64,000 bases of DNA from Tsukamurella pulmonis (lineage in GTDB: Bacteria; Actinomycetota; Actinomycetes; Mycobacteriales; Mycobacteriaceae): assembly GCF_900103175.1 (NCBI RefSeq), contig NZ_FNLF01000002.1, positions 2,370,136-2,434,135 of the forward strand, in the 5' to 3' direction. Below the pieces are notes generated by a model that was not told the origin of the DNA, did not search any database, and saw only the letters and a program-made list of their open reading frames with translations. The position numbers and the translations under genes were made by a program. Positions 59,764 to 63,363 of this stretch are shown one piece after another. Within the stretch, counting starts at the first letter, position 1, and the number at the start of each line of letters is the position of its first letter.

Positions 59764-59946
59764 TCAGGGCCGCGCCGGCCACCGTCGGCGACGGTCTGCG
59801 GCCCCCTCCTGCCCGGCATGGGCGTCACGCTTGTGCCGGCACACGACGCCGGCGGCCGCGATCTCGTCGGCGTCGAACCCGTGCGGCACCGGGCCGTCCT
59901 CGACCAGCGCTCGCACGAGCGCCTCCTGGCGTTCCCGCAGGCTCAT
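59764..59946 (-). CDS. SCO6045-like small partner protein of DUF692
   Basis: 60 residues from ATG 59946, which gives an ATGA overlap with the DUF692 stop; a longer reading from 59985 is a shadow. The sequence SLRERQEALVRALVEDGPVP, then GFDADEIAAAGVVCRHKRDA is the SCO6045 C-terminal-type domain that accompanies DUF692 enzymes in actinobacteria. By analogy with small partner proteins of other DUF692 systems it may present the substrate; this is inference. It is Arg-rich at the end (DRRRRWPARP) and has a single Cys. Confidence 0.75.
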   Translation of the reverse strand: MSLRERQEALVRALVEDGPVPHGFDADEIAAAGVVCRHKRDAHAGQEGAADRRRRWPARP

Positions 59947-60809
59947 GCCCACCTCCTCCTCGCGTCCCTGGTGATCGGCGCGCACCCCGCGGCCACGGCG
60001 ATCGCATCGAGCTCGTCGAACAGGGCGGCGGCGGGCGGATAGCGCCCGTCGCGTTCCAGCATGAACGGAACGTCCGCGCGGGCCCGTAGTGCCGTGACCA
60101 GCTCCAATACGCCCGCGCTCACCGGGTCCGTGTGCGTGTCGTGATAGCGGCCGCCCACCTCCGAACCGCCCGCGACGTGGCCGTAGGCGATCCGGTCAGC
60201 GGGGAGCCGGGCCAGTTCGCGCTGCGGGTCGAGGCCGCGGTTGCGCGCGTTCGCGTAGACGTTCGCCACGTCCAGCACGAGCAGTGCCCCCGTGCGGGCG
60301 AGCAGTTCGGTGAGGAACTGCGCCTCGGAGAACTCGTCCTCGGGCCAGCACAGGAATGCCGCGATGTTCTCCACGGCGACCGGCACCGGCAGCGACTGCT
60401 GCAGCCGAGTGATGTTGCGGACCAGCACGTCGAGCGCCTCCCGCGTGCGCGGCACCGGCAGCAGGTGCCCCGCCTCGATTCCGGAGGCGCGGACGAAGGC
60501 GACGTGCTCGCTGACCAGCGGAGCGCCGAAGGCCTCGGCGCACGCGGCGAGACGGTGCACGCGCGCCGGATCCAGCTCATCGACCCCGCCGAGCGAGAGC
60601 GCGACTCCGTGCGGAATCAGCGGCACTCCACGCTCGCGCAGATCGCGCTGGAGGGGATCGAGGCGCGCCCGGCCCCGCCGGAGCGGTACGGACTCGGCGA
60701 TCACCTCGCAGAACCCGGGCCGCAGGTCGGCGATGACGCCTGCGATCTCGCGTCGCCAGCCCAGGCCGAGCGGTCCGAGAGCGGGAACGGTCCGCGGTGC
60801 CGTGCTCAT
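59943..60809 (-). CDS. DUF692 multinuclear non-haem iron enzyme (MbnB/TglH/BufB family)
   Basis: 288 residues from ATG 60809 (overlaps the membrane-protein stop). TIM-barrel DUF692 signature with candidate iron ligands in order: VPLIPHGVALSLGG (His), LVSEHVAFVR (His), VAVENIAAFLCWP (Glu, Asn), LLVLDVANVYANARN (Asp, Asn), AYGHVAGG (His), HDTHTDPV (Asp, His) and FMLERDGRYP (Glu). Known relatives oxidise cysteine residues in peptides, e.g. MbnB in methanobactin and TglH in thiaglutamate synthesis. The upstream gene ends in a Cys/Gly repeat tail, the obvious candidate substrate. It sits between the two coupled partners. Confidence 0.93.
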   Translation of the reverse strand: MSTAPRTVPALGPLGLGWRREIAGVIADLRPGFCEVIAESVPLRRGRARLDPLQRDLRERGVPLIPHGVALSLGGVDELDPARVHRLAACAEAFGAPLVSEHVAFVRASGIEAGHLLPVPRTREALDVLVRNITRLQQSLPVPVAVENIAAFLCWPEDEFSEAQFLTELLARTGALLVLDVANVYANARNRGLDPQRELARLPADRIAYGHVAGGSEVGGRYHDTHTDPVSAGVLELVTALRARADVPFMLERDGRYPPAAALFDELDAIAVAAGCAPITRDARRRWA

Positions 60810-61711
60810 CCGCCGCACCCTCCGCAGCCGCCACAACCACCACACCCGCCGCTTCCGCCGCCGCCGTCACCCCCGCACGAGGCGCCGCAACCGCCCCCGT
60901 CGGCTCCGGCGTCCGCATTGCCTGCAAGGCCGATGCCGTTCGCGAAGCCCTCGTCGAGCTGCCACAGCGCCGCCGTCCCGAAGACCGCGACGGACAGGCC
61001 CGCGGCGGCGATTCCGTAGGTGGTGAAGGCCGGCCTGCGGGCGGGCGCGAGGTAGTCCAGACGCGTGCGCTCCGCCTTCAACAGCCGTTTGCCGGCGCGG
61101 GTGCCCCGGGCGACGGTCCACAGGCGCGGAAGGATCACGAAGCAGGACAGCAGTCCGGGCAGGAACAGCCCGAACGCCGAGGACAGCTCGTGACCGCGAA
61201 CGAACATCATCCGGGACCACCCGACGGCCACTGCGGCCACGCACACGGCGGTCACCGGGGCGGCGCCGAGCCGCATGCGCCACCGGTCGACGTCGTGCCG
61301 CAGGTAGCCGCGAGCGGCGAGGCGTTCCTCGAGCCGGTCCAGGTCGGCGTCGAGGGCCGCGATCAGGGCGGCGACCGTGGACTGCTCCGTTCGACCGGTC
61401 TCCCGGAGAACCGCGGCGGTGAACGCGTCCGCGTGCGGATCGAGGGGGCGCGCACCGTCGATCCGACCGCTGCCGGTCACCTGCCCACCGGCCCGCAGCA
61501 GCGCCAACGCCGCGACGACGGGCGCCTCCCGGGAGCGCAGGCAGGCCAGTTCGGGTGCCGTCAGCGGTGGCTCGGCGACGACGGTGCGTCGCGGCGCCGC
61601 CGCGAACCGCCAGATCAGAGCGAGGAGGATGCCCGCGGCGAGGGCCCGGAGGAACCACCGCGCCTCGTCGTGGGCGACGAATTCGTGGAGAAGACGGATG
61701 TGATCAGGCAT
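60806..61711 (-). CDS. TIGR04222-type membrane protein with Cys/Gly-rich C-terminal tail
   Basis: 301 residues from ATG 61711, preceded by GGGAGGTG at ideal distance; the GTG at 61720 lies inside that site. A membrane helix follows the N-terminus (FLRALAAGILLALIWRF). A cytosolic domain with LTAPELACLRSREAPVVAAL and VDRWRMRLGAAPV is the TIGR04222 (near_uncomplex) pattern. Two to three more helices follow around 155-195 and 235-255. The last 37 residues are almost only Gly with six Cys, ending in four GGC units. Such a tail is a plausible substrate of the coupled DUF692 enzyme. Confidence 0.85.
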   Translation of the reverse strand: MPDHIRLLHEFVAHDEARWFLRALAAGILLALIWRFAAAPRRTVVAEPPLTAPELACLRSREAPVVAALALLRAGGQVTGSGRIDGARPLDPHADAFTAAVLRETGRTEQSTVAALIAALDADLDRLEERLAARGYLRHDVDRWRMRLGAAPVTAVCVAAVAVGWSRMMFVRGHELSSAFGLFLPGLLSCFVILPRLWTVARGTRAGKRLLKAERTRLDYLAPARRPAFTTYGIAAAGLSVAVFGTAALWQLDEGFANGIGLAGNADAGADGGGCGASCGGDGGGGSGGCGGCGGCGGCGG

Positions 61712-61804: not shown

Positions 61805-61870
61805 TCAGCGCCGCCGGACGGGCTCGGCGAACACCGGTTCGGGTCCGTGCGCAGAAGGATTGGGGGACAT
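61805..61870 (-). CDS. 21-codon ORF with strong Shine-Dalgarno, in frame with the membrane gene
   Basis: From ATG 61870, preceded by GGAGGTGA at optimal distance, it encodes a 21-residue Pro/Arg-rich peptide beginning MSPNPSAHGPEPVF and ending EPVRRR. TGA at 61805-61807 stops it, but the same frame continues open through 94 bases (with coding-like GC3) into the ATG of the TIGR04222 gene. It could be a leader peptide, a small protein, or the first exon-like part of an interrupted longer ORF. It contains no Cys. Confidence 0.45.
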   Translation of the reverse strand: MSPNPSAHGPEPVFAEPVRRR

Positions 61871-62118
61871 GATGTTCACCTCCGGTGGCGACGTTCTTTC
61901 AAGGTTCGGTAAAGCATGGCGACCGAACGCGCCGTTGACCAGCTTCGGGAGGCAAGAGTTTGCTGAGAGTTCTTGTGCCGCAGGGTCGCCCCAGCTCGAG
62001 GACGGTTCCCTCGTCCATTCGGCGTGGTGCACGACCGGGATCGCGGCGCGCGCAGGCCCGCCGATGCGGGCCTCCGGCCCGAAATCCACGGCCGGATGAG
62101 GCCGCATAGGGTGGGGGC

Positions 62119-63363
62119 ATGCGCTCCTGGCCGACTCCCACCGTCCCCAGCGTGCCCGGACCGTCGGTCCCGCTGCGCCTCTACGACACGTCCGACGCGG
62201 TGGTGCGTCCCGTCAACCCCGGCGCCGTGGCGGGCATGTACGTCTGCGGCATCACCCCCTACGACGCCACGCACCTGGGGCACGCCGCCACCTACCTCGC
62301 CTTCGACCTGGTCAATCGGGTGCTGCGGGACAACGGGCACGATGTGCACTACGTGCAGAACATCACCGACGTCGACGATCCGCTGTTCGAGCGCGCGGAG
62401 CGCGACGGCGTGGACTGGCGCGATCTGGGGGCCCGCGAGATCGAGCTGTTCCGGGAGGACATGGAGGCGCTGCGGGTCATCCCGCCGCGCGACTACATCG
62501 GCGCCGTGGAGTCGGTCGACGAGGTCGTCGAGTACGTCGGCAAGCTCCTCGACAACGGCTCGGCGTACGTCGTCGACGACGCGCAGTACCCGGACGTGTA
62601 CTACCGCGCCGACGCCACCGAGCAGTTCGGATACGAGTCCGGCTACGACCGCGCGACGATGGAGAAGTTCTTCGCCGAACGCGGCGGCGATCCCGACCGC
62701 CCGGGCAAGCGCGACGCCATCGACCCGATCCTGTGGCGCGCGGAGCGGCCCGGCGAGCCGTCCTGGCCCTCACCGCAGGGCCCCGGGCGGCCCGGCTGGC
62801 ACATCGAGTGCGCGGCGATCGCCGCGAACCGGATCGGCGCCAGCATCGACATCCAGGGCGGCGGCAGCGACCTGATCTTCCCGCACCACGAGTACTCGGC
62901 CGCCCACGTCGAGGCGGCGACGGGGGAGCGCCGGTTCGCGCGGCACTACGTGCACGCGGCGATGATCGGCCTGGACGGCGAGAAGATGTCCAAGAGCCGC
63001 GGCAATCTCGTCTTCGTCTCGAAGCTGCGGCGCTCGGGCGTCGACCCCGCGGCGATCCGCCTCGGCCTGTTCGAGGGGCACTACCGGCAGGATCGGCCGT
63101 GGTCCGACGAGGTCCTGCAGCGCGCGCAGGCGCGCCTGGGCCTGTGGCGGCGCGCCTTCCAGGCCTCGTCGGCCCCCGACGGCGACGAGCTGATCGCGCG
63201 GGTCCGCCGCTACCTGGCGGACGATCTGGACACGCCGCACGCCCTCGCGGCGATCGACGCCTGGGCCGAGAAGGCCGTCACCGTCGGCGGGCCCGACGCC
63301 GGCGCTCCGGCGGCCGTGGCGACCGCGATCGACGCGCTGCTCGGCGTACCTGCCGCGGTCTGA
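62119..63363 (+). CDS. mshC: Cysteine--1-D-myo-inosityl 2-amino-2-deoxy-alpha-D-glucopyranoside ligase
   Basis: 414 residues from ATG 62119. A class I CysRS paralogue: [18 protein letters not shown] contains the zinc Cys43 and the HIGH-like THLGH (51-55), [20 protein letters not shown] and PHHEYSAAH supply further zinc ligands, and [10 protein letters not shown] is the KMSKS loop. The protein is shorter than CysRS because it lacks the anticodon-binding domain. It joins cysteine to GlcN-Ins in mycothiol synthesis. In M. tuberculosis cysQ lies next to mshC (Rv2131c); here the DUF692 operon occupies that side. Confidence 0.98.

Follow-up and report, generated by a model that had tools for sequence, protein, structure and literature searches.

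A three-gene TIGR04222-MNIO-partner unit of Tsukamurella pulmonis with a cysteine tail as candidate enzyme substrate

Introduction

TIGR04222 genes precede genes for multinuclear non-heme iron-dependent oxidative enzymes (MNIOs; DUF692) in a group of clusters described by Antoine et al. 2025 (PMC12452194), and the encoded membrane proteins carry Ser/Gly-rich C-terminal tails with Cys. There, the tails are predicted to be periplasmic, the TIGR04222 proteins may in part be MNIO substrates, and PME-type 2 partner proteins occur in at least 10% of the TIGR04222 clusters, many clusters being apparently partnerless. Here we analyse such a locus from Tsukamurella pulmonis, contained in a 64,000-nucleotide stretch of contig NZ_FNLF01000002.1 (positions 2,370,136 to 2,434,135; hereafter the window). 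The window fits the published group, its Cys-tailed TIGR04222 gene immediately preceding the one for the MNIO, and shares with it the membrane protein with a C-terminal Cys/Gly/Ser tail as proposed substrate.

The bufferin and oxazolin systems (BufA/BufB/BufC and HvfA/HvfB/HvfC) resemble this locus in their MNIO, BufB being the nearest, in having a partner protein and in their repeated Cys-Gly sites. However, their precursors have Sec signals and their partners contain DUF2063 and a RiPP recognition element (RRE) (PMC12452194), whereas here a membrane protein is the presumed substrate and Pfam gives no match for the partner. The methanobactin pair MbnB/MbnC also combines an MNIO with a small partner, and the model of a full-length partner is most like MbnC among the chains compared, but the substrate there is a free peptide and the window MNIO reaches only 26 bits against the MbnB model. 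In EGKCG peptides, MNIO-partner pairs convert Lys-Cys sites to 5-thiooxazoles, which lowers the mass by 4 Da; the products bind copper, and an absorbance near 305 nm is reported for oxazolin (PMC13097082). An engineered HvfB-HvfC fusion yields an active mixed-valent diiron state (PMC13419390).

The gene set is genuine and conserved, and most of it had been foreseen as a prediction: both the gene pairing and the proposal of the tail as substrate, which the original prediction for this locus had taken as possibly novel, appeared in 2025 (PMC12452194). Among the matches listed in our literature searches, no other paper on the TIGR04222-MNIO pairing turned up, and TIGR04222 appears once in the available text of PMC5183585. 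New here are the partner assignment, the natural fusions, a single-helix twin of the system and a revised topology, which together give a testable mechanism; in the accessible part of PMC12452194 we found no mention of the MNIO-partner fusion, the CGG end or the single-helix twin.

Results

Overall organization of the locus

The locus consists of three overlapping genes on the minus strand, and the open reading frame (ORF) list confirms this arrangement as originally described. Both junctions are ATGA overlaps, the first between the TIGR04222 stop and the MNIO start, and the second between the MNIO stop and the start of the 60-residue gene.

60806..61711, minus strand: TIGR04222-domain membrane protein of 301 residues, presumed substrate (ORF; TIGR04222 E 1.9e-26; AlphaFold model with mean confidence, pLDDT, 85.5)
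59943..60809, minus strand: MNIO (DUF692) enzyme of 288 residues (PF05114 E 1.5e-74; invariant ligand positions)
59764..59946, minus strand: minimal MNIO partner of 60 residues (SCO6045-like, PME-type 2), comprising the first two helices and a basic end

We favor, with moderate confidence, the reading that the three genes form a protein-modification unit in which the membrane-tethered, cytosol-facing Cys tail serves as the MNIO substrate. The earlier interpretation is supported in part, for the tail as likely substrate, the conserved triplet and the small protein as partner; the pairing itself is not new.

MNIO enzyme and its minimal partner

The window MNIO reaches 251 bits against PF05114 (cut-off 25) and is closest to the BufB model (NF050167; 180.4 bits, below the equivalog cut-off of 310), while the MNIOs of two named Tsukamurella contigs are 82-83% identical to it. 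Residues H67, H102, E147, D180, N183, H211, D224 and H226 are invariant in 15 aligned MNIOs and align with 3BWW, in agreement with the predicted full set of expected metal ligands. We take all eight positions to be metal ligands, going beyond N, D and H of site 3. These site-3 ligands are named in PMC13419390.

The 60-residue protein has no match in Pfam or NCBIfam. Against a partner hidden Markov model (HMM), built from 47 sequences without Tsukamurella or Mycolicibacterium, it gives 45.2 bits (E 8e-13) and is the sole match among 861 window frames. SCO6045 of S. coelicolor presumably belongs to the same family. A partner follows the MNIO in 80 of 80 named loci (L102-L181, the best 80 of 574) and is present in 67 of 67 further sampled loci, compared with the at least 10% of clusters given in PMC12452194. 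As for PME-type 2 proteins, its gene lies just after the MNIO, it lacks the DUF2063 signature, and it is homologous to members; one sequence in the HMM, the 158-residue partner of Micromonospora matsumotoense (L175), equals example B of PMC12452194 in organism and length. In the model of a 158-residue relative, not of the 60-residue form, MbnC is the most similar among the chains compared, NGO1945 (3DEE) and TglI not being listed. Among solved structures, sequence comparison with the partner returned a single chance match (E 1.3). Homology, fusion and the MbnC-like model of the relative make it very likely that the small protein serves the MNIO as its partner, as had been proposed, and judged by sequence it is a shrunken or truncated PME-type 2 partner.

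MNIO and partner are naturally fused in 37 of the 67 sampled loci and unfused in the window, whereas the single polypeptide of HvfB-HvfC is engineered (PMC13419390). This natural fusion supports a putative physical MNIO-partner complex. Together with the 60-residue partners, such fusions offer ready-made minimal enzymes for study. In two loci, L168:5310-6851 and L173:5310-6866 (Rhodococcoides fascians and a Rhodococcus), one polypeptide combines the partner domain with a membrane part and a molybdopterin oxidoreductase domain; the L168 protein matches PF00174 at 75 bits and its membrane part gives a weak cytochrome b561 match below cut-off, while L173 was read by eye. This oxidoreductase perhaps supplies electrons or carries out a second redox step.

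The Gly/Cys tail and its linkage to the MNIO

The membrane protein scores 93.1 bits against TIGR04222 (cut-off 43) and ends in ..GGGCGASCGGDGGGGSGGCGGCGGCGGCGG.

60809..60919, minus strand: C-terminal Gly/Cys tail, residues 265-301 (low-confidence and disordered in the AlphaFold model)

The translated ORF bears out the six Cys and four GGC units first noticed in this Gly-rich tail, and each of the six Cys directly precedes a Gly. A plain DNA triplet or repeat expansion is ruled out, because synonymous codons are mixed (Gly: GGC 9, GGA 4, GGG 4, GGT 4; Cys: TGC 4, TGT 2) and similar tails recur in many genera. Cys is followed by Gly at 272 of 325 tail Cys in a class-level sample and at 294 of 341 in the named loci.

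The class-level sample comprises 394 genomes with 137 TIGR04222 matches, of which 119 (E at most 3.3e-13) were used and 18 weaker ones left out; at most seven candidates were scored per genome, so that weaker copies may be missed. Cys-tailed copies lie in MNIO genomes in 62 of 63 cases, compared with 35 of 56 for Cys-less copies. With an MNIO counted as local at up to 3.5 kb on the same strand, the 119 matches comprise 55 Cys-tailed copies with and 8 without an MNIO, and 21 Cys-less copies with and 35 without. The same four classes number 40, 7, 3 and 27 outside group g47 (p 5e-11), and 15, 1, 18 and 8 within it (p 0.12). Of the eight Cys-tailed copies that lack a local MNIO, seven belong to genomes that encode one at another site. 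The eighth (G419) has no MNIO match, and its contig ends 140 bp beyond the gene. The check on gene co-conservation, whose absence the original prediction had named as refuting it, did not refute it in the sampled genomes, where the triplet is conserved. In the Rhodococcus erythropolis group, L133, L138 and L141 have the MNIO-partner pair without an adjoining TIGR04222 gene and Cys-tailed copies elsewhere in the genome, in L141 about 6.7 kb upstream on the same contig.

A second MNIO of the window's genome, at C2:1408000, is followed by a 93-residue protein, whose single transmembrane (TM) helix is accompanied by a basic stretch and a tail of Ser, Gly and Cys, and then by a longer partner; the only TIGR04222 match of this genome is the window's own. 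All 14 MNIOs of this class (clade B; 182-200 bits; this genome and 13 relatives from a set of 61 genomes) adjoin a short single-TM tail protein, some loci holding two. A partner match is found in 14 of 14 as well, the weakest (20 bits) inside the MNIO frame of L056, while the divergent MNIO loci L060, L100, L101 and L364 have neither a single-TM tail protein nor a partner match. The clade-B locus is, on this comparison of sequences, a simpler twin in which the anchor varies and the tail and MNIO-partner pair are constant. The earlier statement that no free short precursor exists therefore holds at the window locus and not for the genome. The best argument for the tail as what the enzyme acts on is exactly this, since tail and MNIO-partner pair stay while the anchor changes. 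Taken together, the linkage makes the tail the most likely MNIO substrate, as had been suggested, and we consider this assignment quite probable.

Membrane topology of the tail

Hydropathy and the AlphaFold model indicate the following segments.

61598..61657, minus strand: TM1, N-terminal helix, residues 19-38 (hydropathy, AlphaFold model)
61118..61261, minus strand: hydrophobic helical hairpin, TM2 and TM3, residues 151-198 (hydropathy, AlphaFold model)
60935..61030, minus strand: hydrophobic stretch that could pass for a final TM, residues 228-259; modeled as short broken helices, probably cytosolic

Positive charges per protein number 13.6 in loop 1-2, 0.5 in loop 2-3 and 6.3 in loop 3-4 (62 Cys-tailed rows, two of them from the window), and therefore TM1 runs out-to-in, TM2 in-to-out and TM3 out-to-in. 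The tail is placed in the cytosol because the 228-257 segment is far less hydrophobic than TM2 and TM3, often charged, and modeled as short helices; from hydropathy, charge and model together, a cytosolic tail is likely. This location differs from the periplasmic one predicted in PMC12452194, and it alters which function deserves testing.

With the same enzyme and substrate, the tail could instead end outside: modification in the cytosol would precede insertion of the last segment, and the tail would then face outward as in bufferins. Besides the published periplasmic prediction, this alternative could draw on the moderate hydrophobicity of the 228-257 segment (mean best-17 Kyte-Doolittle value, KD, 1.19), which a positive stretch precedes and acidic residues follow. 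It is also favored by the tolerance of TM1 itself for charges: TM1 carries at least two in 29% of rows, in matches where its start is often cut. However, the 228-257 segment has at least two charges in 40% of the 62 rows and a KD below 1.2 in 45%, is modeled as a set of short helices (pLDDT 93-96), and corresponds to SVAVRG..EPDLRAAF in Cys-less copies. In the clade-B proteins, the Arg/Lys stretch after the single TM puts the tail in the cytosol by the positive-inside rule, which points in the same direction. An outward tail is unlikely.

Other substrates and partial modification

Several observations weigh against the tail as substrate. An MNIO without TIGR04222 within 3.5 kb is found in 38 of 106 cases (68 have one), clade-B copies and other MNIO types being included among the 38. 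Thirteen g47 genomes (G221, G587, G242, G552, G460, G188, G305, G627, G642, G518, G526, G490 and G480) keep a fused MNIO-partner beside a Cys-less TIGR04222 gene. No Cys tail was found in the stretch fetched around their MNIO, two loci being read in detail, and their substrate may therefore lie elsewhere. The MNIO might act on something else, the Cys tail then binding metal or disulfide in unmodified form and having only its operon in common with the enzyme. Gly-rich Cys-less tails on paralogs without an MNIO nearby fit this possibility, as do the seven Cys-tailed copies that lie far from their genome's MNIO. We regard it as improbable, given the near confinement of Cys tails to MNIO genomes, the like tail on an unrelated single-TM anchor beside the MNIO in every clade-B locus, and the neighborhood of the named loci, where no cluster outside the triplet occurs in more than 16 of 80 (40 largest clusters, naive ORFs).

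Modification of the C-terminal Cys-Gly-Gly end alone, as by TglH on a C-terminal Cys, with the remaining cysteines as metal ligands, is very improbable: 66 of the 76 TIGR04222 proteins at named loci and 27 of the 63 Cys tails in the sample finish in CGG, but other ends are common among the 63 (GGG 13, SSS 7, GGS 5) and the Cys-Gly context is common to all six window Cys. A CGG end is present, too, on some TIGR04222 copies without a local MNIO.

Proposed mechanism and role

With the whole tail as substrate, the MNIO and its 60-residue partner would bind the TIGR04222 protein at the cytosolic membrane face and oxidize cysteines of the flexible Gly tail in place, and the modified product would stay membrane-tethered. 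By analogy with the nearest models, BufB and HvfB, the modification could be a four-electron Cys oxidation such as 5-thiooxazole formation, for which the chances seem close to even. A role in buffering copper or another soft metal at the membrane, by analogy, is conceivable but rather doubtful. A redox link is hinted at through SCO6045, if it belongs to the partner family as assumed above. After peroxide, SCO6045 of S. coelicolor is up 3-fold together with cysteine-synthesis genes (PMC4991794).

In its widest form, the proposal is of a widespread actinobacterial MNIO with a minimal (about 60 residues) or fused partner, producing a cytosolic, never-released array of modified Cys at the inner leaflet for metal or redox functions, with interchangeable anchors (TIGR04222 or a single helix); we put this forward tentatively. 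To our knowledge, the MNIO products characterized so far are peptides or precursors destined for export. If true, a protein substrate that stays tethered to the membrane and faces the cytosol would extend MNIO chemistry to resident cell proteins.

TIGR04222 relatives, neighboring genes and upstream region

Foldseek on both models examined gave nothing at E 0.001, and a GOLPH3/GPP34-like fold for TIGR04222 is a weak lead. L074, L076, L083 and L084, weak TIGR04222 matches from distant lineages, are long proteins with Gly-rich Cys-less tails, which presumably resemble DUF2207 proteins; the L006 copy matches DUF2207_C below cut-off.

Among the 40 largest neighbor clusters, nothing stands out as a conserved transporter, a protease or another tailoring enzyme. 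The largest nameable one, phosphofructokinase-like, lies next to 16 loci from Actinomadura and its relatives, and an ABC-transporter-like one, in 10 of 80 loci (eight of Micromonospora/Paractinoplanes, L112 and L167), is taken as chance or local synteny. The divergent neighbor of the triplet is mshC:

62119-63363: mshC (TIGR03447, 721 bits)

A general mycothiol link through this gene is unsupported, given the limit on neighbor clusters stated above.

Alignment of ten same-genus upstream regions highlights two features.

61805..61870, minus strand: 21-codon ORF with a good ribosome site (upstream alignment, 10 same-genus loci)
61954..61969, minus strand: upstream element CTCTCAGCAAACTCTT (CTCTCAGSAAACTCTT-like) (aligned upstream regions, genome motif count)

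The conserved ATG of the short ORF appears to open the TIGR04222 gene in 8 of the 10 loci and opens only the short ORF in the window and L030; this short ORF is probably what remains of the start of a tandem TIGR04222 copy that has been lost. A resemblance of the upstream region to an MprA-type site gained no support. The CTCTCAGCAAACTCTT element is kept with some substitutions in the ten aligned regions, is the sole genome copy at up to one mismatch, and looks like a regulator site.
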